A stretch of 64,000 nucleotides of DNA from Rothia dentocariosa ATCC 17931. GTDB lineage: Bacteria > Actinomycetota > Actinomycetes > Actinomycetales > Micrococcaceae. Positions 2,143-26,192 of the stretch are shown here, in pieces; positions within the stretch are counted from its first letter, which is position 1, and every line of letters begins with the position of its first letter. Both the position numbers and the translations under genes were made by a program. The stretch lies in contig NC_014643.1 in the NCBI RefSeq assembly GCF_000164695.2, positions 186,001 through 250,000 of the forward strand, written 5' to 3'. Under the pieces are notes generated by a model, which did no database searches, was not told where the DNA came from, and saw only the letters and a list, made by a program, of their open reading frames with translations.

Positions 2143-2398
2143 AAGAGAGGATTCCTTTCATGGGATCAGTGATTGGGTGCCCTCACGGGCCTTTCCGTGA
2201 TGTCTTAGCACCGGTTCACTCATTCTACCCTGTTCTGGTATGGATTCGCTATCGTTACACGACGTGTAAGGCTCATGCTGTGCGGTAGAAATGTGAATTT
2301 ACTCAGTTTTAGAGGTGCGGAACCACGCATGTGCGATGCCCTAGAGAATCCATAAAAATCATCCGGCGGTAGTAGTGCGGATGTGCAAAACTAGAATT

Positions 2399-2815
2399 AT
2401 GAGCTTGAAGAAAAACGTATCTGAGGATTCCCGCTCCGGCGGTAAGAAACATATAGCGCCCGTGGTAACAGCCGGTTTTCTAGGGACCACGGGTGTGCTG
2501 CATTTCGCGAAACCCGAACATTACGACGCAATCGTGCCTCGTGCCCTGCCGGGCTCCGCGCGGTTCTACACCTATGCTTCGGGGGCTGCTGAGCTTGGTA
2601 TCGCAGGGCTGCTGACCGTCCCAACAACCCGCCGGGCGGGTGCCCTCGCGGCTATTGCACTGTATACGGCGGTGTTCCCGGCGAATGTGCAAATGGCGTG
2701 GGATTGGCGGCATGAGTCAGCGTTTAAGCGTGTTGTGGCTTTCGGCCGTCTACCGTTGCAGCTGCCAATGATTCGCCGTGCCTGGCGCATCTATAAAACC
2801 TCCTCTCGGCGCTAA
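2399..2815 (+). CDS. DoxX-like membrane protein
   Basis: About 138 aa with four hydrophobic segments. The stretch GVLHFAKPEHYDAIVPRALPG is typical of the DoxX/SURF4-like family (HFxxPxxYdxivP). These are small integral membrane proteins, often linked to redox metabolism, of unclear biochemical role. GTG at 2375 and ATG at 2381 are alternative in-frame starts; none has a convincing Shine-Dalgarno, so the start is uncertain. Followed 80 bases later by a methyltransferase on the same strand. Confidence 0.7.
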   Translation: MSLKKNVSEDSRSGGKKHIAPVVTAGFLGTTGVLHFAKPEHYDAIVPRALPGSARFYTYASGAAELGIAGLLTVPTTRRAGALAAIALYTAVFPANVQMAWDWRHESAFKRVVAFGRLPLQLPMIRRAWRIYKTSSRR

Positions 2816-2894
2816 AGCTCTCCTGGCGGTGGCACAAACTGCGGCCGTGCTATGATAAAAAATCTTCACGCCTGGATTATTATAAAGGAGCACT

Positions 2895-3590
2895 ATGTCT
2901 AGTACCCGCCAGAACCCGGCCGAGCAGGCGAAGGCCCTTGCTTCCCAGCTTAAGTGCCCCATGGGTGACACCGGTCAAGAGCTAGCACACTCTTTAAACC
3001 TGGGGAATCTTCCCATGATTGTGAGCGCCCTGAATGCATTAGGCATTGAGGAAGATGACCGCATCCTGGAGGCGGGCCCGGGCAATGGTGGGCTCCTCAA
3101 TTATGTTCTCTCCCTCGCAGAGAACCTGCACTATGATGGGGTGGAAATTTCGCCGCTCATGTATGAGCAGGCCCGCGCCGCCAATAACGTGTTTATCGCA
3201 GAAGGGCTGGCTGAGTACGCGCTGTATGACGGCGTGAATCTGCCGTATGAAGACGGCATTTTCACGAAGGTGTTGAGCGTGAATACGGTGTATTTCTGGG
3301 AGGAACCGGCTTGGCTGCTCGCAGAAATGTGCCGGGTGCTTACCGCCGGCGGGCGGGTGTGTTTAAGCTTCTGTGAAAAAGATTTTATGAAGACCCTGCC
3401 ATTCACCAAGTACGGCTTCGCCCTGTACGATGCCGCCGATATAGTTGCGCTCACACAAGAACTGCCGCTACATACGGTAGCTGTACAGCATCTGCACGAT
3501 ATGGCGGTGGCGGGCGGCTCTGCCCGGCTGGTACGACGCGACTACGTAAACCTCGTGTTTAAAAAAGAGACAATCAGCTCTACTACATAG
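2895..3590 (+). CDS. Class I SAM-dependent methyltransferase
   Basis: 231 aa. Motif I ILEAGPGNGGLLNYVLS binds S-adenosylmethionine; an acidic residue ends strand 2 (GVEISPLMYEQAR), followed by LPYEDGIFTKVLSVNTVYFW and MCRVLTAGGRVCLSF, the usual Methyltransf_11 order. Substrate unknown. A clear AAAGGAG lies 5 bases before the ATG. It is the first of three genes with little spacing (methyltransferase, 4-TM protein, methyltransferase), probably one transcript. Confidence 0.85.
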   Translation: MSSTRQNPAEQAKALASQLKCPMGDTGQELAHSLNLGNLPMIVSALNALGIEEDDRILEAGPGNGGLLNYVLSLAENLHYDGVEISPLMYEQARAANNVFIAEGLAEYALYDGVNLPYEDGIFTKVLSVNTVYFWEEPAWLLAEMCRVLTAGGRVCLSFCEKDFMKTLPFTKYGFALYDAADIVALTQELPLHTVAVQHLHDMAVAGGSARLVRRDYVNLVFKKETISSTT

Positions 3591-3611
3591 CTTGGGAGTT
3601 AGAAGGATCGC

Positions 3612-4046
3612 ATGGTAGTACCTTTCGTCATGGCTGGAGTGCTTATGGCACTGGCGTTCGGCGCACATATTTTTGTTGGAACCCGCGAGACGCTGTCTTT
3701 GCGTCCGGTTGCGCATCCCGCCAATACAGAAAACATGGTACGTGTCCCTGCTAATCACACAGAGCTTTCCCGGCACTGGACGCAGGCCATGTGCGCGTTT
3801 CAGCTGGTGAGTATCGATCTGCTGTTGATCACCATTGTTACGTTCCTATTAGCATTCACCGACTTATTGCCAGCCAAACGAGAAATCGGTTTATTCATCG
3901 CAGCGTACTTAGGCGCGTGGGGATTCGTATGGCTGGTGCAGCTGGCAGCTGTGAAAGTCGAACGCCGCACCTACTACATGTTGGGACAATGGATGCTGTT
4001 CTTCCTCTGTGCCGCCCTCATGGTGTGGGGCTCTCTTGCTCTGTAG
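3612..4046 (+). CDS. Four-helix membrane protein of unknown function
   Basis: 144 aa with hydrophobic helices near residues 2-22, 63-85, 92-112 and 122-142. I do not recognise a named family. AAGGA upstream of the ATG, 21 bases after the preceding methyltransferase stop; probably the same operon. The second methyltransferase follows after about 140 bases. Confidence 0.65.
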   Translation: MVVPFVMAGVLMALAFGAHIFVGTRETLSLRPVAHPANTENMVRVPANHTELSRHWTQAMCAFQLVSIDLLLITIVTFLLAFTDLLPAKREIGLFIAAYLGAWGFVWLVQLAAVKVERRTYYMLGQWMLFFLCAALMVWGSLAL

Positions 4047-17880: not shown

Positions 17881-18621
17881 TCAGCGTTTTGCAGGCTGAA
17901 CCGCTCCCTTAGGGGTTACCGCATTCGAACCATTGGGCATCACGGGGGTTTCAGGCGTTCCACTTGGGGTCTCACGAGACGTTTCACCGTTCATCCTGAC
18001 CTCGTAGGTACCGTTAGGTTGCACCTGTGAATTCTTATTGGAGCCGTTGGGCAGACCATTTTCATTTGTAATCCAGGATCCATCGGCACCCACCCAATCG
18101 GTGTTTCCGGTGGCTGGATTGCTCCGATCCCACGATCCATCGGAATACACCCTTACAATCTCACCGTCGGGTTCGGTTGCAGTCCAGGATCCGTCTTCAG
18201 CAACCTGCACATACCCTTCAGAACCGGGATTTTGGTTCGCTGTCTTTCCGGGGGCGCCCTGTTGTTGAGCTCCGCCGCCAGCGACACCGCCGTTAGCTCC
18301 AGCACCCTGGTCTGCCTGGGTGCCGCCTCCATTAGCGCCAGTACCGCCGTCACCCTGCACTGCACCATTACCAGAATTCTGTTCCGCACCTGCGCCACCG
18401 TTAGCGCCTGAACCGGAATTTCCAGATGTTCCACCGCCGTTATTCACAGCGTTGGAGCTTCCTGTGGAGCTAGAAGCACGAGATGAACTTGATGAAGAAG
18501 AAGCCGAGGACGAACTTGAAGAATCATTCGCACTATTTGAGCCGCATGCACTCAAAGCTAAGATGCCAGCAACAGCCAGAGATACGCATGCGGTAGCCTT
18601 CTTGGTAGTCATGATTCGCAT
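17881..18621 (-). CDS. Lipoprotein with DGSW repeats (paralogue 1)
   Basis: 246 aa. Signal peptide with lipobox LSAC (ILALSACGSN), a Ser-rich stretch, a Gly/Asn/Ala-rich flexible region, then short repeats: AEDGSWTATEPDG, YSDGSWDRSNPATG, GADGSWITNENG and QPNGTYEV. The DGSW/NGTY spacing (about 20 residues) suggests a small beta-repeat domain. Expected on the outer membrane-surface side, anchored by lipid. AGGAG five bases before ATG 18621. Closely related to the gene at 19056, including the signal peptide and upstream DNA. Function unknown. Confidence 0.75.
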   Translation of the reverse strand: MRIMTTKKATACVSLAVAGILALSACGSNSANDSSSSSSASSSSSSSRASSSTGSSNAVNNGGGTSGNSGSGANGGAGAEQNSGNGAVQGDGGTGANGGGTQADQGAGANGGVAGGGAQQQGAPGKTANQNPGSEGYVQVAEDGSWTATEPDGEIVRVYSDGSWDRSNPATGNTDWVGADGSWITNENGLPNGSNKNSQVQPNGTYEVRMNGETSRETPSGTPETPVMPNGSNAVTPKGAVQPAKR

Positions 18622-19055: not shown

Positions 19056-19832
19056 TTACATGCCCGGCTTAGTGGGCTGTACCGGGTTTACTGCCGGGAC
19101 TGCCTTCGGGTCAGGGAGTTTTCCAGGAGACACCGGGACAGCATTGCTGGGCATCTCAGGGGAAAGCTGACCGTCATAGGTAACCCGGTAGGTTCCGTCA
19201 GCCTCTACCCGGGCTACCGTGTGCCCGTCGGCATAGTTCTTAGTCCAAGAACCATCCGCCGCAACGGTACTGGTACCGTCTTCCCCAACGCTCGTCCAGC
19301 CACCGTCGCCGTCTACATGATACCGAGAACCCGTGGTATCAACGTAATCCCAGGAAGCTTCGCGGTGAATTACGTATTCGCCAGGGGTCAATGCGTTGGG
19401 GTTTTTCGTGACATTATGTTCATCATTCGCAGCATTCGCCCCTCCAGGATCGGCCTGTTGCTGCTGGGCACCGCCTTGGGCTTCAGCGCCCTGGTTCGCT
19501 TGTGCTCCGCCGTTGGTATCGGCGCCGGTTACACTGCCACTCTGTGCGCCAGTGCCGGAGTTTTGATCCGCCCCAGTGCCGTCTTCAGCACCAGAATTTG
19601 CTGCGCCGCCGTTAGCGCCTGAACCGGAGTTTGCGGAGTTTCCATCACCGCTGCTCACCGTGCCAGATCCACCGGCGCTAGCTGTCTTGGAGGCTGTTGT
19701 TGATGATGAAGATGATGGGGAAGAATTCGAAGCATTATTAGAGCTATTTGAACCACAGGCGCTCAAAGCCATAATGCCAGCAACAGCCAGGGATACATAT
19801 ACAGGTACCTTCGTGGTAGTCATAATTCGCAT
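19056..19832 (-). CDS. Lipoprotein with DGSW/DGTY repeats (paralogue 2)
   Basis: 258 aa, same plan as the gene at 17881: MRIMTTTK start, lipobox LSAC (IMALSACGSN), Ser/Ala-rich then Gly/Gln/Ala-rich linker, and a C-terminal repeat region (VHREASWDY, DGDGGWTSV, AADGSWTKNYADG, EADGTYRVTYDG). It ends in a Pro/Val-rich tail. Signal peptides and upstream regions are nearly the same while linkers differ, as expected after tandem duplication and relaxed change in the disordered part. Function unknown. Confidence 0.75.
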   Translation of the reverse strand: MRIMTTTKVPVYVSLAVAGIMALSACGSNSSNNASNSSPSSSSSTTASKTASAGGSGTVSSGDGNSANSGSGANGGAANSGAEDGTGADQNSGTGAQSGSVTGADTNGGAQANQGAEAQGGAQQQQADPGGANAANDEHNVTKNPNALTPGEYVIHREASWDYVDTTGSRYHVDGDGGWTSVGEDGTSTVAADGSWTKNYADGHTVARVEADGTYRVTYDGQLSPEMPSNAVPVSPGKLPDPKAVPAVNPVQPTKPGM

Positions 19833-20213: not shown

Positions 20214-20426
20214 ATGAAGCTTTCTGCCCGTAACCAGCTCGCTGGCAAGGTTGTTGAGATTACTGAGGGTGCGACTAACGGCATCGTTAAGATTGAGATC
20301 GCTCCCGAGGTTGTTATCTCTGCGTCCATCACCAACGAGTCCATCAAGGAGCTGGGCCTGAAGGTTGGCGAGACCGCTTACGCAGTGATTAAGGCGTCCA
20401 ACGTTATGGTTGGTGCTGACCACTAA
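20214..20426 (+). CDS. Molbindin-like TOBE-domain protein (Mop)
   Basis: 70 aa, one Mop/TOBE domain: SARNQLAGKVVEITEGATNG, VKIEIAPEVVISASITNESI and VGETAYAVIKASNVMVG, the standard molbindin sequence. Such proteins bind molybdate or tungstate oxyanions in the cytoplasm as hexamers. AAGGA seven bases before the ATG. No molybdate transporter genes are near. It marks the left edge of the mosaic region next to ychF. Confidence 0.92.
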   Translation: MKLSARNQLAGKVVEITEGATNGIVKIEIAPEVVISASITNESIKELGLKVGETAYAVIKASNVMVGADH

Positions 20427-20488: not shown

Positions 20489-20530
20489 CGGAGCCCCGCA
20501 CTGTGTGTACAGTGCGGGGCTCCGTTTTTT
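20489..20530 (+). terminator. Rho-independent terminator of mop
   Basis: CGGAGCCCCGCACTGT and its complement around GTGT, followed by TTTTTT. On the minus strand it also ends the array of genes downstream of ychF. Confidence 0.9.
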
Positions 20531-20543
20531 ATGTTTTTATCGT

Positions 20544-20570
20544 TTAGACGTTGAAGCGGAACTCCACCAC
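20544..20570 (-). repeat. ychF 3'-end repeat, copy 4
   Basis: Minus strand encodes VVEFRFNV-stop (GAGTTCCGCTTCAACGTC, TAA), matching the last codons of ychF at 24879. Preceded by in-frame NVELRRG and followed by the mop terminator. It is the far edge of the array. Confidence 0.85.
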
Positions 20571-20607
20571 GCCACGGCGTAATTCGACGTTTAGGGTAAG
20601 CGGTACC

Positions 20608-21696
20608 CTACGAGGAGAGATGCTCCTTCCGTTGCCCAACTTCTGTGGCAGCCGTTTCCAAGCTCTCCCCGTAGATTTCCCACAATTCAGGGCACTTTTC
20701 ACTAATCCATTCAAATCCCTGACGGACATCATGGCTATCAGTTCCCCAGTTTCCTTCCGATTTAGGTACTGATTCAATTGCGAGAGCTAGTTTTTCAATC
20801 ATCCGCATCGCTAAATGACCATCAACATCGGCAACCCATCCAACTGCTCTGATGAGCCAGGCAGCTGTAGCAGTGACACTGTCAGTCGATCCCTTAATTT
20901 CCCACTGGTTAAACGAGCTTAGGACACCTCGATGTAGCAGATAGGCGAGAGCTTGGGCAATCCCACCCCTCAGTTTTTCCACCTCATCCGCATTCGACGT
21001 CGCACCTCGGCGTCCCTTTTCCAAGTCTTTGACCGCGAGAAGGGCACCTGTCAGAACATTCAGCTTAAGACCACCGTGAGCCTGAGAATCAATCCTCTCA
21101 ACCGCATGAAGAAGAGGACTCACTGCTTGGGGAAGAGCAAGAACCAGATCATAATAGAAGAAATGACCTGGACATTGTTTTTCTGCAGTCGGTCCCGTAA
21201 CAAGCGCAACGATACGCGAGTCCTCAATCTTTGCTCCCTGTCTTTTTGCTTCCGCAATGAATTTAAGCAATCCGGGATAGGGCGGGTACCCGTCGCTTTC
21301 TGCATAACGGCGCTCAAACCCATCAACATAATTACTCACAGCGGCATCAGTCAGGTTATCTTGCGCTTTCGCACCGGTAGACGTTCCCGGAAGCGCAAGA
21401 GCAGGATTAGCACGGAGATGAGCGAGAAGGAAGTCCCGGTCCTCCTCCTTGTACTCAAGAATCTCCTTCCACAACACTTCCAAGTACCTGGCGTCTGAGG
21501 ATTGAGTAACAATTCCCAGCAGCGCATCGCGTCGCTGGAGTTGAGAAACCAACGTTTGACGAGCAAGGATTTTGGCTTGCAACTCGCTGTCACGTTTTGC
21601 TTGTTTCGCTCCTGCCCTCCATAACACAATGGGGATGAGTGCAGTAGCCACAAAGGATGCTACACCCAAGAGAAGCATCGGGTCATCCCACGACAA
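20608..21696 (-). CDS. Unknown protein with one N-terminal membrane helix (cassette gene C)
   Basis: About 362 aa. A hydrophobic helix LLLGVASFVATALIPIVLW at the N-terminus, a charged helix (RAGAKQAKRDSELQAKIL) and a largely helical cytoplasmic part. No known motif recognised. TTG 21696 has no ribosome site; the frame is open to 21732, where AGGAGG and correct spacing lead to an ATA codon giving IIIDWWNSLLNRLSWDD. It lies directly behind ychF-end copy 3 and before copy 4. Probably horizontally acquired cargo; role unknown. Confidence 0.6.
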   Translation of the reverse strand: MSWDDPMLLLGVASFVATALIPIVLWRAGAKQAKRDSELQAKILARQTLVSQLQRRDALLGIVTQSSDARYLEVLWKEILEYKEEDRDFLLAHLRANPALALPGTSTGAKAQDNLTDAAVSNYVDGFERRYAESDGYPPYPGLLKFIAEAKRQGAKIEDSRIVALVTGPTAEKQCPGHFFYYDLVLALPQAVSPLLHAVERIDSQAHGGLKLNVLTGALLAVKDLEKGRRGATSNADEVEKLRGGIAQALAYLLHRGVLSSFNQWEIKGSTDSVTATAAWLIRAVGWVADVDGHLAMRMIEKLALAIESVPKSEGNWGTDSHDVRQGFEWISEKCPELWEIYGESLETAATEVGQRKEHLSS

Positions 21697-21742
21697 CCTG
21701 TTTAAAAGAGAATTCCACCAATCGATTATTATTTCTTACCTC

Positions 21743-21769
21743 CTAGACGCTGAATCGGAGCTCCACCAC
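21743..21769 (-). repeat. ychF 3'-end repeat, copy 3
   Basis: Minus strand encodes DVVELRFSV-stop with TAG followed by GAGG, so the ribosome site of the next gene is built into the repeat, as in ychF itself. Upstream a 22-codon frame (MVKKSKVALAYNC...) reads into it. Confidence 0.8.
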
Positions 21770-21854
21770 GTCACAGTTATAAGCCAGCGCTACTTTACTT
21801 TTCTTCACCATGAGATGTTATCCAAGTTCTGCATTCACACTTCACTACCATAAA

Positions 21855-22985
21855 TTAAGATTCAGAAGATTTTTTAATATTATCGACATAGATTAGAAGA
21901 CTTGTAACAAGCATAAGCGCTTGAATACAATTTTCCAATTTATACTGCCGACGCGAGACGCCATGAACACTCGCATGACGCGAGTATTCCGCTGGAGGTT
22001 CCTCACCTGCATGACCAAAAAATTTCATATGACTATTCCAGATCGGGGCAAACACAAACATATCCAAGAAATTCATATTCTTGATGAGCTGGGGCAGTTC
22101 GTCACCTTCCTTATGATTAGAAATCGCAGTACGTGTTTGCTTATTCAAGCCCCAAAAATTCTGATGCACAGTATCCAGCGTATTTGTAAATAGCGCCTGC
22201 GCTGCCTCAACATGACCGTTTTTCAGAGCCTTCAACCCAGCCAGAATAAAAAACTTCTTTTCCAATGCATATTTAGAAGAAATTTTATTTAGAACATTCT
22301 CACAGTCTTCAAAAATCGATTCTTGGTACTTAACTAGTATCTCCCTTCGGCTCGCCCCATTATCTGCTTCCACCAATTCAAGAACAGTACTCATTCTAGG
22401 CACAGCATACAAAGGAATCCCATCCCTCTTAGCCACTTTAAGCACCTGTTCTATAGTTATACTACTGCCAACTTCTATAAGATTTTCGGGGATTTTTTTA
22501 GGTAAACCCTTAAATAAGTTAAATACCTCTAGGGGAATTGTTTTATTTACAGAACCCAAAAAGTTATCAATTACTTCGCCTATTACATCAAGACTTGCAG
22601 AAAATTGATTGTTAAAGACAGGAATTTCAAAATTGATTGAATCGATTTTAGATAACGAAAGATTCTGAATAGCAGCTGAATCGATGAACCAGTTCTGCTT
22701 CTGAACTACTTTGATTAATTCTCTACACCGAGCAGCGTTCTGCTCTCGAAACGGCTTCAGAGCTTCCTCAAAATGAGTTGCGTATTGCCCCTGAAACGGT
22801 TTCAGAGCTTCCTGTAGCACAGGAATTTTCCGAGCATAAAAAATCTCAGATATACGATTAGACGTTCTCAATAGCTCTGACGAAATATGAATCTTTGCTG
22901 ATCTGCTCCTCATTACATCAGTTTTTGATTTATCCGATACAGCAGGCTTACTGTTCTCTTCAACCGGTTCATTATTCATAATCAT
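21855..22985 (-). CDS. Putative HEPN-like protein with RxxxxH motif (cassette gene B)
   Basis: About 376 aa from MIMNNEPVEEN (GGAAGGG before ATG 22985). An imperfect duplicated EALKPFxxQ segment lies near residues 57-85, the middle is helical, and the C-terminus has YSRHASVHGVSRRQY followed by a helix (LENCIQALMLVTSLLIYVD). R336 and H341 form an RxxxxH motif with an HG context like that of HEPN-type RNase families. The gene is much richer in A/T than its neighbours, indicating recent transfer. HEPN proteins are common in antiviral and toxin systems; no partner antitoxin is seen. Catalytic role is inferred. Confidence 0.5.
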   Translation of the reverse strand: MIMNNEPVEENSKPAVSDKSKTDVMRSRSAKIHISSELLRTSNRISEIFYARKIPVLQEALKPFQGQYATHFEEALKPFREQNAARCRELIKVVQKQNWFIDSAAIQNLSLSKIDSINFEIPVFNNQFSASLDVIGEVIDNFLGSVNKTIPLEVFNLFKGLPKKIPENLIEVGSSITIEQVLKVAKRDGIPLYAVPRMSTVLELVEADNGASRREILVKYQESIFEDCENVLNKISSKYALEKKFFILAGLKALKNGHVEAAQALFTNTLDTVHQNFWGLNKQTRTAISNHKEGDELPQLIKNMNFLDMFVFAPIWNSHMKFFGHAGEEPPAEYSRHASVHGVSRRQYKLENCIQALMLVTSLLIYVDNIKKSSES

Positions 22986-23047
22986 GTCGCCCTTCCTACC
23001 TTCTAAATTAAGGTATGTTGCATGTTCGTTTTGCATTTCTAGGGTAC

Positions 23048-23102
23048 AAAAAATCCGGTGACAGCGAGATGATTTTCGTCATCCCTCCGTCACCGGATTT
23101 TC
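23048..23102. terminator. Terminator behind ychF-end copy 2
   Basis: AAAATCCGGTGAC pairs exactly with GTCACCGGATTTT around a 26-base loop. In minus-strand direction it follows the decayed gene and copy 2, and separates them from gene B. Confidence 0.85.
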
Positions 23103-23125
23103 AAAGCCCTATCGACCCGTCAGAT

Positions 23126-23152
23126 TTAGACGTTGAAGCGGAACTCCATCAA
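23126..23152 (-). repeat. ychF 3'-end repeat, copy 2
   Basis: Minus strand ends NLMEFRFNV-stop (TAA). The codons for EFRFNV use the same bases as copy 4 and differ from resident ychF at GAG and TTC. It is the in-frame end of the decayed gene at 23126-23880. Confidence 0.8.
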
Positions 23153-23880
23153 GTTCAAATCACCAACAGCTAGCCTGGGTATATCGGTGCCGCGAATGAC
23201 AAAAGCGGGTGCATCCGAGACTGGATTCGGAGTCTCGGTACCCCACCCACCCCCGATGTGGTAGGAAACGCCACCATCAAACCTGACAGCCATGATCCGA
23301 GAACCCCGTTGATCGCCACGTCGACCTTGTCTCGAAGAACGTCAGAGTCGTCGCTGAGTTGAGGAACTCCTCATGTAGTCGTTGCAGGTCGCTCACGAAT
23401 TCGGCGCCTGCTTTGTCGACGGCGCACTACCGCTGTAGTGGCAAGGGTAGAGGCTCCAGCCCTGGTCCTGGATATCGGAGCGGGTGGTGATCTTGCACCG
23501 GCCACCAACGTCGACGCACTGTACGCCAGCCACCATCACATCGACGGTGGCTAACGCGATAAGCTGCTGACGGATCTCGTTCTCAGACTATTCAGCGTCG
23601 CCCTCAAGCTGGGTGGGTAGTGGTACGAAGAGACACATCAGTTCGATAAGGGTAGAGCATTCGAGCTTCTGGCCCCCTCGTAGCAGGACGTCCTTGAGCT
23701 TGGGTCGGTCTCTTCGATACCCTTGGTCGCTAGTCAGCCCCTTTGCCAACATCCTTATCTTCTGACAGGTTGAACGGGTTGGATAGGCGAGACTCGTCGG
23801 ACACATAGAGCACGGACTTCGCCCTGTAGTCCGCGATGGTAGCGGGGTTGCGCCTCGTGCTGCCAGACTCGACCACAGCA
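23126..23880 (-). pseudogene. Decayed high-GC gene ending in a ychF-like tail
   Basis: The minus strand shows coherent protein pieces in shifting frames: NPATIADYRAKSVLYVSDES, RDRPKLKDVLLRGGQKLEC, NEIRQQLIALATVDVMVAGV, KITTRSDIQDQGWSLYPC, DKAGAEFVSDLQRLHEEFL and FDGGVSYHIGGGWGTETPNP, the last running in frame to PRLAVGDLNLMEFRFNV-stop. Several frameshifts and stops separate them. GC-rich codons (GTC, GAC, CTC) suggest an origin in a higher-GC actinobacterium. Family not recognised. Confidence 0.65.
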
Positions 23881-24020
23881 GAACTTGCTCTCTGCGTATG
23901 TCAAAAACACGAGGCCCAGCACTGGATCTCAGTATTGTACAGGTGTGTGCTTGGCGTTAGCACAAAGCTCATCTGCTGCGGTTCACAATGTCGCGCAGGC
24001 GTATGCGAGATCGAAGAATA

Positions 24021-24869
24021 TCATTCCGCCTCCTCAATGGGAGACCCTTCCGAGTCGGGAAAGAGAATCGCGCGGCATTCATCATCGAGCATCTTTGCCA
24101 TTTCATCACTCCCAAGATTAACCACAGGGGCGTCCTGCTCAGCTGAAGGTTCCGGATACTGCCCAAGGGGCGAAATCCGCTCCGGGCGTTTTGGTATCCG
24201 TGCATACCAGGAAGGCGGCTCAGTAAAGGGGGGTGTGAACTTACCCGGATCATCCCAGTAGTACGGCATATTGGCCTTAATATACGGCCATGACGCAGCA
24301 TCCACAGCTGCTTGGAGTCGGCGAATCTCTTCGCGTTTCTCGGAATCTTCCTGTGCGGTTCTGGGAGGCGTAAGGAAAAATGATTCGAGCGCTGCTCCGA
24401 GGCGGTCATGACAGGCCAGGAGCTCTAAGAAATTCGTATCGGTATTTGGTGTCAGCGCAAGGATTGCCACCTGAGAATTATATGCTCGCAGGCACCGCAA
24501 AACCTCCTCTCGAACTTGCGCATCATAGAGATTCTGCCACGACATCCCCACGTGAGTGACAACATCCCAGCCCATATCAGCAGTCACCCGCACCGCATTG
24601 CCAGTCACAGGGGCCCGCTTTGAGCGTTCGCGCCTTAACGCAAACCAATTAACGAACCACGTGGTGAGCACGGCGAAGATCGTCATGGAGAACAGCGCCG
24701 TAATCATGGCATGGCCCAACGCGAATACCCGGAACTGGTCCCACAAGAGGTCAGCCAGCCCAACTCCCACCGCTAAAACGCACGCCACCACCGGCAGACG
24801 GTAATCCAGCAGCTTGGCCACCCTCACCCGAGTAAAGGACCTCACGCCCTCGTGCCTGACACGCCTCAC
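24021..24869 (-). CDS. Unknown membrane protein coupled to ychF (cassette gene A)
   Basis: 282 aa. Two hydrophobic helices (VVACVLAVGVGLADLLW and ITALFSMTIFAVLTTWFVNWF, about residues 27-75), then a cytoplasmic part with MGWDVVTHVGMSWQNLYDAQ and an acidic end. No family recognised. GTG 24869 begins nine bases after the ychF stop, and its AGGAG overlaps that stop (TAGGAG), so it should be co-translated with ychF. Absence of a known link to YchF and its place in the repeat array suggest cargo placed behind a housekeeping gene. Confidence 0.6.
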   Translation of the reverse strand: MRRVRHEGVRSFTRVRVAKLLDYRLPVVACVLAVGVGLADLLWDQFRVFALGHAMITALFSMTIFAVLTTWFVNWFALRRERSKRAPVTGNAVRVTADMGWDVVTHVGMSWQNLYDAQVREEVLRCLRAYNSQVAILALTPNTDTNFLELLACHDRLGAALESFFLTPPRTAQEDSEKREEIRRLQAAVDAASWPYIKANMPYYWDDPGKFTPPFTEPPSWYARIPKRPERISPLGQYPEPSAEQDAPVVNLGSDEMAKMLDDECRAILFPDSEGSPIEEAE

Positions 24870-24878
24870 TTCTTTCTC

Positions 24879-24905
24879 CTAGACGTTGAAGCGAAACTCA
24901 ACCAC
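24879..24905 (-). repeat. ychF 3'-end repeat, copy 1 (resident gene end)
   Basis: Last codons of ychF, VVEFRFNV-stop (TAG), followed by GAGAAAGAA. Reference copy for the partial duplicates at 20544, 21743 and 23126. Confidence 0.85.
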
Positions 24906-25964
24906 ATCACCGTCGGCCATGATGTAGTCTTTGCCTTCCATGCGGACTTTGCCGCGGGCTTTTGCTTCGTTCATGGAACCTGCCGCATCTAGATCATCGA
25001 AGGAAACAACCTCGGCCTTAATGAAGCCGCGTTCAAAATCGGAGTGGATCACGCCTGCCGCCTGCGGTGCCGTGTCGCCCTTATAGATCGTCCAGGCACG
25101 CGATTCCTTCGGGCCAGCCGTCAGATAGGTCTGCAGCCCCAGGGTTGAGAAGCCCACGCGAGCCAGCTTATCCAACCCCGATTCGTCCTGACCACTCATT
25201 TCCAGCATCTCGCGGGCCTCCTCCTCGGAAAGCTCCACCATGTCAGCCTCAAGTTTCGCGTCCAAGAAAACAGCTTCCGCCGGGGCCACCAGCTCACGCA
25301 GCTCGGCCTGCTTCTCCTCAGAAGCGAGCACGCCCTCATCCGCGTTAAACACGTAGATAAAAGGCTTAGCGGTCAGCAGGTTCAGCTCCTTCAAATGCGC
25401 CATCTCAAGCTTCTCGGCAGCCGCACGTGAGAAAATCGTGTTCCCATCCTCAAGAATCTGCTGCGCCTGCTTGTAAGTCTCCAGCTGGGCGGCATCGCCC
25501 TTCTTAATCTTCACGGCCTTCTCAAGGCGCGGAATCGCGTTCTCCAAAGTCTGCAAATCCGCCAGAATCAGCTCGGTATTAATGGTCTCCATATCGGAGG
25601 CAGGATCAACCTTGCCGTCCACGTGAATCACATCCGGGTCATCAAACGCGCGCACCACCTGCGCAATCGCGTGCGCCTCACGAATATTAGCCAGGAACTT
25701 ATTCCCCAGCCCCTCACCCTCAGAAGCACCCTTCACAATACCCGCAATATCAACGAACGAGACGGTTGCGGGCAGGATACGCTCAGACCCGAAAATCTCG
25801 GCGAGCCGGTTCAGGCGGGCATCCGGCAGGTTCACCACACCAATATTCGGCTCAATCGTAGCGAACGGGTAGTTAGCCGCCAGCACCGTGTTGCGGGTGA
25901 GCGCGTTGAACAGGGTGGACTTGCCCACGTTAGGAAGACCGACAATGCCGATAGTCAGAGCCAC
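24879..25964 (-). CDS. ychF: Redox-regulated ATPase YchF (Obg-family P-loop NTPase)
   Basis: 361 aa, the family length. GLPNVGKSTLFNALTRN is the P-loop, FVDIAGIVKGASEGEGLGNKFL the switch II region (DxxG), and FVFNADEG the altered G4 that makes YchF prefer ATP over GTP. The C-terminal TGS domain ends IMADGDVVEFRFNV. YchF binds ribosomes and takes part in stress responses. The GTG start (VALTIGIVG) with AAGGA in front is chosen over longer starts up to 26108 on family length. The 3' end appears to be a repeated insertion site. Confidence 0.96.
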   Translation of the reverse strand: MALTIGIVGLPNVGKSTLFNALTRNTVLAANYPFATIEPNIGVVNLPDARLNRLAEIFGSERILPATVSFVDIAGIVKGASEGEGLGNKFLANIREAHAIAQVVRAFDDPDVIHVDGKVDPASDMETINTELILADLQTLENAIPRLEKAVKIKKGDAAQLETYKQAQQILEDGNTIFSRAAAEKLEMAHLKELNLLTAKPFIYVFNADEGVLASEEKQAELRELVAPAEAVFLDAKLEADMVELSEEEAREMLEMSGQDESGLDKLARVGFSTLGLQTYLTAGPKESRAWTIYKGDTAPQAAGVIHSDFERGFIKAEVVSFDDLDAAGSMNEAKARGKVRMEGKDYIMADGDVVEFRFNV

Positions 25965-26123
25965 AGAAAATCCTTCATAATGACGACGATAATTCGCCCA
26001 CACCCCCGAGTGATACCAGGCGCAGGCACAGACAGTTAACATTCTACCGCGCGGGCGGTTACTCTGCGCTGAAGGGTGAGGCCCGGGTTCCTTCCCCGCC
26101 GGATACACGCCCGCCCTCCCCCG

Positions 26124-26192
26124 CTATTTTGCGGGTTATTTTGCATTGGGCGACTTAAATAACCGTCTGATGCACAATAACCCGCAAAATAG
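26124..26192. other. Long hairpin in the ychF / ABC divergent region
   Basis: CTATTTTGCGGGTTATTTTG pairs with CAATAACCCGCAAAATAG over about 22 bases with one mismatch, loop about 25 bases. It lies upstream of both genes, so ordinary termination of either is not expected. Not in families 1-3. Confidence 0.7.

Follow-up and report, generated by a model that had tools for sequence, protein, structure and literature searches.

We analysed a 64,000-nucleotide stretch of Rothia dentocariosa ATCC 17931 (contig NC_014643.1, positions 186,001 to 250,000; hereafter the window), in which the 3′ end of the housekeeping gene ychF recurs behind the gene and bounds an array of three units. A first-pass annotation of the window had reported four ychF-end copies in one orientation and had explained them by repeated site-specific entry of mobile DNA, restoring the ychF 3′ end each time. 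Here the copies and units are described, compared with their counterparts in related genomes, and considered together with a family of large serine recombinases (LSR) found at the same locus in relatives.

The ychF array of the window

The features are listed outward from ychF in positions of the window, where ORF means open reading frame and "word" the repeated ychF end.

24879..25967, minus strand: ychF, ORF of the housekeeping gene; its last codons serve as the integration site
24879..24905, minus strand: copy 1, the resident ychF 3′ end and start of unit 3
23126..24878, minus strand: unit 3 (1,753 bp), between copies 1 and 2, with an intact ORF and a decayed hsdM
24021..24869, minus strand: unit 3 gene (282 aa), GTG start just after TAG-GAG
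23299..24024, minus strand: the "high-GC wreck", a decayed hsdM-like remnant, seen as blastn pieces against island first genes
23126..23152, minus strand: copy 2 of the word
23050..23101: hairpin behind copy 2, 23-nt arms, 87% complementary
21743..23125, minus strand: unit 2 (1,383 bp), AT-rich
21855..23036, minus strand: unit 2 gene, of a family found in ychF islands of other actinobacteria, with an invariant RHxxxH
21743..21769, minus strand: copy 3 of the word, FSV variant
20544..21742, minus strand: unit 1 (1,199 bp), word-bounded
20608..21696, minus strand: unit 1 gene, 362 aa when read from the listed TTG; its relatives have a start codon that is absent here
20544..20570, minus strand: copy 4, far end of the array
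20489..20524: hairpin between array and mop, perfect, 16-nt arms
20214..20426, plus strand: mop-like gene, resident right neighbour of the array

All four copies lie exactly where the first-pass annotation had placed them. Copies 1 to 4 encode VEFRFNV, MEFRFNV, VELRFSV and VEFRFNV, with a stop after each; TAG-GAG follows copies 1 and 3 directly, and copies 2 and 4 end in TAA with a hairpin nearby, as had been described. The word is pseudo-palindromic about its middle (GACGT...ACGTC), and these copies are the only four matches of its 22-bp form in the whole 2.5-Mb genome when up to three mismatches are allowed. On the minus strand, ychF is followed by unit 3 (56.2% GC), unit 2 (39.7%), unit 1 (50.4%) and then the mop-like gene. 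Copy 4, presumed to be the displaced native end of ychF, has a similar right flank in the genomes G012, G013 and G014 (G and L numbers are handles for genomes and loci; G000 is the window genome, and some named loci are genomes also counted under G handles).

Cassettes and attachment sites in related genomes

Among 35 genomes of the genus, the word with up to three mismatches was found in 29, with four copies in G000 and G006, three in G013 and G014, and two in others. Full-length ychF was matched in 34 of the 35, the last genome (G031, 65% complete) giving a weak partial match only. The backwards word had no match in any of the 35 genomes, and a position-weight scan of the genus stretches scanned detected no opposite-strand copy. 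In the family, 84 of 295 genomes had two or more copies, on one strand in 82 (exact codon-degenerate motif, counted by hand from a table that lists positions for part of the genomes), the maxima being seven in G256 and six in G250; the reversed pattern gave 0 in every row of the 295. A class sample of 394 genomes, 6 of them within the family, added 10 of 388 genomes with at least two copies, which in one of the ten lie on two contigs. The zero control matches rule out chance recurrence of conserved C-terminal codons. Within L139 (G491, another family), positions 2284-3949 hold units of 204, 835 and 626 bp between four word copies behind ychF.

Occupied and empty sites were both present. G019 and G018 have an insert of 814 or 553 bp between two copies, a single copy stands at the same site in G017, G015, G005 and G030, and the flank past the insert is 94.9% identical between G017 and G019. 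Varying cargo between words and one-copy empty sites, the pattern by which repeated entry was to be recognized, were thus seen among the genus and family genomes, and not the same copies and cargo fixed in all relatives. From 62 genomes 137 cassettes were cut (median 1,814 bp; 72 under 2 kb); several fetched stretches end inside an array, and a "last" junction is the last in its stretch.

Individual cassettes recurred in different surroundings, 35 of the 137 falling into 12 clusters common to several genomes and 102 being singletons. Seven genomes have one cassette of 1,165 to 1,168 bp in common, which in G207 and G251, different species with ychF 96.3% identical, is 100.0% identical over 1,146 bp (leaving out the word, which differs by one base); in six arrays it is the first cassette, in G259 the second. 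G047 and G431, members of different families with ychF at 75.0%, have a 1,503-bp cassette at 98.7% identity, which occupies the first position in G106 and G431 and the second in G047. Different families are also represented by G037 and G427, which have a 569-bp cassette in common (97.3% identity), and Rothia G006 shares two adjacent cassettes (by eye TIR-like and AAA-ATPase) with G087 of another genus, at 98.9% and 99.3% identity. G013 has a counterpart of unit 1 that is 87.1% identical to the window's, while its sister G014 (ychF 97.6%) reaches only 79.0% in this counterpart, so unit 1 did not follow ychF. Its gene has 270 relatives, the named ones among the best 120 of these 270 being Rothia. 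Judged by these identities, small cassettes move as units between species, genera and families, shuffled independently between arrays as in integrons. The occupied and empty pairs rule out vertical inheritance with ordinary divergence, as do cassettes that are more alike than the ychF genes of their hosts. When ten near-identical cassette pairs were compared, identity on the right broke off at GGT|N in five and two or three bases further in two, and elsewhere or nowhere in the remaining three; the words of these pairs differ by 0-4 bases on the left and 0-5 on the right. The 1,166-bp cassette was not found in plasmids.

The junctions have the geometry of serine integrase attachment (att) sites. 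Internal junctions are mostly hybrid, a left arm of the attP-half type (AGAGGTT-N9-CGGAAC) being joined to a right arm of the attB-half type (GTTCCG-N4-AACGTCT). Read outward from the centre, the left-arm consensus of 121 internal junctions is CCAC GTTCCG gcaC.gA.c AACCTCT, and the ychF right arm in loci bearing an LSR is its mirror image (TGGA GTTCCG gcaCGGAaT AACcTCT), whereas the right arm encoding FNV reads TGGA GTTCCG cTTC AACGTcT. The attP half next to ychF in LSR loci (TGGA-GTTCCG-N9-AACCTCT) encodes an alternative YchF C-terminus, and the internal left arm AGAGGTT-N9-CGGAAC-GTGG is joined to an attB-type right arm that restores FNV-stop. Of 121 internal left arms, 98 have the outer motif AACCTCT (5 of 7 or better) at offset 19, as do 18 of the 22 ychF right arms that are altered (20 from loci holding an LSR or a fragment of one, plus G010 and G029, which have neither), and no arm of either kind has it at offset 14; in FNV right arms the outer motif is at offset 14 in 132 of 168 and at 19 in 0. 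Shuffled arms gave at most 1 match at the stricter 6 of 7, and 47 ychF left arms were without the attP motif. The halves are mirror-symmetric in attP with a 5-bp offset across these 121, 22 and 168 arms, which agrees with the rule for large serine integrases in the available text of PMC3783163, where the zinc-domain motif of attB lies 5 bp nearer the centre than that of attP. A cassette accordingly carries an attB-type end on the left and an attP-type end on the right, and the array reads B|B' cassette P|B' cassette P|B'. The copies had at first been taken for ychF ends of other species; this is too simple, since in relatives the word is an att-site half mostly travelling with the cassette.

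A weight matrix trained on the first loci gave a mean of 18.8 for 55 held-out internal junctions, 52 of them above 3.8 and the lowest at -17.1, against a background with mean -23.5 and 99.9th percentile 3.8 (the background maximum, 33.8, is the score of a real junction in G057). A/T third positions made up 41 of 204 in far-end copies and 178 of 464 in earlier copies, which gives the arrays a direction, the copies furthest from ychF looking the oldest.

The serine recombinase at ychF and the probable origin of the array

Integrases beside ychF in relatives, which the first-pass annotation had proposed to look for, were found as one LSR clade. The LSR of R. santali has 514 aa and both LSR domains (PF00239 and PF07508), and the nearest solved chains by sequence include TP901-1 and phiC31 integrase. 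LSR genes were first seen beside ychF in G001, G008, G009 and G021, and 27 of 295 family genomes have a homolog at E<1e-40. Of 17 homologs at E<1e-100, 15 lie on the ychF contig, 0.05-36 kb downstream of the gene, and two lie at contig ends. Weaker homologs (E 1e-77 to 1e-42) were represented by stretches from 5 of 10 genomes; four of the five (E 1e-77 to 1e-59) hold no ychF, and therefore the association with ychF is limited to the strong LSR clade. At 20 loci with an LSR or a fragment of one, YchF tails such as RHGITSASQGKK, coded by the attP half, replace RFNV; the exceptions are G001 and G006 (FNV) and G073 (FKFNVT). In L198 (11098-11580) and L197 (11062-11577), a small opposite-strand ORF lies just upstream of the LSR gene and is a candidate directionality factor.

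The window itself was said to have no recombinase, and this is true genome-wide for serine recombinases (0 PF00239, 0 PF07508). In G001, the closest relative of the window by ychF (95.3% nt), the LSR is broken and its catalytic start is gone (by eye). At this locus (L061), a broken island, an RCC1-like piece stands where the LSR gene should start (by eye), and a methylase-like gene comes after the LSR gene.

Two units of the window are related to the islands that carry the LSR. The high-GC wreck, whose start overlaps the stop of the 282-aa unit 3 gene (by eye), aligns in pieces of 102-431 bp (blastn 67-77%) with the hsdM-like gene directly after ychF in L198, L196, L207 and L197, and on these alignments it is what decay has left of the hsdM-like gene that comes first in ychF islands, the hsd names coming from reading the sequences, with no family search behind them. 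The intact unit 3 gene has 20 relatives found, one of which ends in DVEFRFNV and therefore seems to adjoin a ychF-end copy elsewhere too. For the unit 2 protein, 202 matches at E<=0.001, itself included, are spread across actinobacteria. A genome scan placed its relatives at 23 loci, with ychF 1.1-6.7 kb upstream on the same strand in 15 and an LSR in 8; in several islands the relative stands just upstream of the LSR gene, and L187, L191 and L195 hold the word or an attP-type copy without full ychF. In Corynebacterium xerosis the island order is ychF, a 516-aa hsdM-like gene, a specificity-like gene, a 1,110-aa gene, the unit 2 relative and the LSR gene, and the first four genes after ychF are the same in Propioniferax and Kocuria varians. 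The family keeps an invariant RHxxxH at R338, H339 and H343 (55 sequences). The unit 2 protein model is helical (mean pLDDT, a per-residue model confidence, 69), with no convincing match among the fold matches listed; for a possible HEPN ribonuclease fold (Rx4-6H), likewise, no match is among those listed. None of the window proteins was matched with confidence in Pfam or PADLOC. Because unit 3 holds the hsdM wreck and unit 2 an island gene, the window array is made at least partly of decayed LSR islands.

We consider, with a probability of about 0.77, that the array is a stack of integrase-free cassettes at the attB of a ychF-specific LSR family. Repeated site-specific entry is supported by the occupied and empty pairs, the varying copies and cargo and the LSR clade at the locus, and the best reading of these data is a system of LSR islands like the staphylococcal cassette chromosome (SCC), with integron-like cassettes free of integrase. 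Site geometry, enzyme location, mobility and direction are read directly from the sequence comparisons, from which how the cassettes move is inferred. A visiting island would integrate at attB behind ychF, the crossover being predicted in GTGGTGGA, between the predicted 52-bp attP of the LSR and the attB of the ychF 3′ end. With a recombination directionality factor (RDF), the attL of the island would pair with any downstream attR, and the island would take along no cassette, a single one or several; excising in a new host through the closest attR, it would leave them there. Direct-repeat attR sites are not expected to recombine together, and arrays would be stable once the integrase is gone. 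According to the available part of PMC3783163, attL x attR needs the RDF and attR x attR occurs only antiparallel, so the direct-repeat P|B' array should be inert until an island arrives at ychF. In the window, islands would have decayed, leaving the hsdM wreck of unit 3 and the unit 2 gene, which in other genomes stands before the LSR.

Several observations weigh against this reading. Array-bearing genomes may have no serine recombinase at all, and therefore the enzyme must be transient; a plasmid search at 1e-30 found no LSR relative, the top phage relative among those listed has 41.7% identity, and the symmetric attP is missing from two phage loci whose integrases are 36-42% identical (best 15 and 16 of 26, shuffles <=18). 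The internal left arms of the window fit the attP model poorly (-13.2, -3.4 and 3.1, on the scale of the weight matrix given above), so these P arms are decayed or of another type, and the 5-bp shift between attP and attB is not clear in the window's own junctions. The 19 held-out ychF ends had a mean of 2.2, with 7 above 3.8, and far-end arms in LSR-bearing stretches scored unevenly (18.1 in G021, 13.2 in G155, 5.1 in G008, 2.6 and -19.4 in G009). Several Rothia copies have extra ychF sequence on the left, outside the model: in G014 (L065, 3507-3710) the right end of a restriction-modification (R-M) cassette is about 200 bp of ychF 3′ end and not an attP arm, a piece of 67 codons with 93% protein identity. 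The 20-bp left word of near-identical cassettes differs by up to 4 bases, the GGT|N break was seen in only 5 of 10 pairs, and the model leaves the source of the attB-type left end unexplained. The role of the RDF, cassette circles and the recombination itself are proposals.

Cassettes might alternatively excise and integrate singly as circles through an LSR acting in trans, the joined P|B' working as attP and the FNV-type left end being the cassette's own P' arm, which would be a true serine counterpart of the integron. The lone 1,166-bp and 1,503-bp cassettes among new neighbours, left ends that often have AT-rich codons and groups that share further sequence behind the word speak for this tentative alternative, while pairing of an attR-type site with attB is not expected of serine integrases in the available text of PMC3783163; the sequence data fit both the island shuttle and integration of single cassettes in trans, and cannot separate them. 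It is unlikely that stacked LSR islands merely eroded in place and the small units are leftovers that were never mobile. The island genes in units 2 and 3, one of them decayed, would agree with erosion, as would a 260-bp remnant in G014 bounded by a degenerate junction, but whole-length cassettes 97-100% identical in different species, genera and families, with different neighbours, contradict it for several cassettes; for units 2 and 3 of the window it could still hold.

Building of arrays by homologous recombination or natural transformation between ychF 3′ ends, with no site-specific enzyme, would explain the extra ychF left of the word in some Rothia copies (up to ~200 bp in G014). We regard it as very improbable, given the attP motif in internal left arms and its absence from ychF left arms, the fixed orientation of the copies and the LSR at the locus. 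For a tyrosine recombinase (XerC/XerD or an integron integrase), the window genome does have two PF00589 proteins and no serine recombinase; the site geometry is nevertheless that of serine integrases, and among the PF00589 positions listed for the genus none lies in a small-cassette array and only one, in the G009 island (C11:203077), lies between ychF and its FNV copies. This candidate for the mover, IntI-type enzymes included, was rejected as hardly credible. A broader form of the stack of integrase-free cassettes, a class-wide integron-like LSR system of non-autonomous cassettes with hybrid attP/attB ends, ordered behind ychF, which transient islands would shuffle in trans so as to form a gene pool common to actinobacteria, with many phage-defence genes in it, has in our view about an even chance of being correct.

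Cargo and related systems

The longest ORF of each cassette was taken as its protein, leaving out duplicates, the three window units and two long ORFs. The commonest Pfam families among the resulting 112 proteins include GmrSD, ApeA/HEPN, KAP NTPase, Abi_2, SMC/AAA, MFS and SDR; there was one match each to MmeI and a type I R subunit. In PADLOC, 167 families (25 listed) were matched by at least one cassette protein. Island stretches of R. santali and G008 hold a type ISP R-M enzyme, a D5-type primase and Abi_2, and also an N6/N4 methylase with a weak ResIII neighbour. Read from these lists, the cargo appears diverse, and many of its families are of the phage-defence kind. In R. santali (L098, 6379-7992), a D5-type primase-helicase lying between ychF and the FNV copy hints at a replicating or phage-dependent form.

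The first-pass annotation had offered as an alternative a cassette-like system read from the ychF promoter. Its cassette part stands, since small units move as units, and the read-through fits mainly the attP-type islands. There, a co-oriented ORF lies at the ychF stop in 16 of 21 and overlaps it (ATGA/GTGA) in 7 of 21, R. santali (L092) being an example, and such a first gene may be translated from the ychF message. For small cassettes, promoterless read-through as a general rule is ruled out: a co-oriented ORF was present at 5 of 47 ychF-adjacent and 25 of 121 internal junctions, compared with 418 of 1,040 random positions. The longest ORF was co-oriented with ychF in 67 of 117 cassettes (137 less 18 duplicates left 119 examined, of which 2 had no ORF of 90 aa).

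Integrons are tandem arrays of small same-strand cassettes with conserved ends, which are shuffled between species by a recombinase encoded separately. The ychF arrays resemble them in their tandem, same-strand and mostly small cassettes, conserved ends and shuffling between species, but their ends match serine-integrase att halves, and the oldest copies look to be those furthest from ychF. They suggest that cassette arrays can arise by an enzymatic route other than that of the integron; integrons are described as rare in this phylum.

In SCC and the enterococcal cassette chromosome (ECC), as far as the available text of PMC6222049 describes them, an LSR island likewise lies at a housekeeping 3′ end with direct-repeat att sites and variable cargo, and tandem ECCs with several recombinases were "not observed directly". 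Here the target is the 3′ end of ychF and not that of rlmH, the hosts are Actinomycetes, one LSR takes the place of the CcrAB pair, and single-gene units without recombinase stand with up to seven word copies in a row. Prophages and islands of the Bxb1, phiC31, TP901-1 and A118 types have the same enzyme domains and the same half-site rule with its 5-bp shift; in the sources as available they are single elements with their own integrase, and arrays of non-autonomous units were not met there. Defence islands and hotspots resemble the ychF cassettes in GmrSD, ApeA/HEPN, KAP, Abi_2, MmeI and R-M proteins, yet the ychF units are individually att-bounded, and MFS, SDR and unknown genes are found in them as well. 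In the open-licence literature (preprints lay outside this search) no account of ychF cassette arrays was found, and one may have been published elsewhere. Pneumococcal prophages insert upstream of ychF, a different site, in the parts of PMC10383233 and PMC8637289 available.

The ychF 3′ end offers one address for reading out actinobacterial cassette genes, of which many are defence-like and many unknown. Its occupation explains differences in the YchF C-terminus between relatives, and the LSR is a natural recombinase with a conserved target in an actinobacterial housekeeping gene.

Beside the array, the window has two tandem, similar lipoprotein-like genes rich in Ser, Gly and Ala (17881-18621 and 19056-19832), and a gene related to this pair lies beyond mop in G001. 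The interval between ychF and an ABC transporter gene carries an inverted repeat (26124-26192) with 23-nt arms, 96% complementary, and a 23-nt loop.

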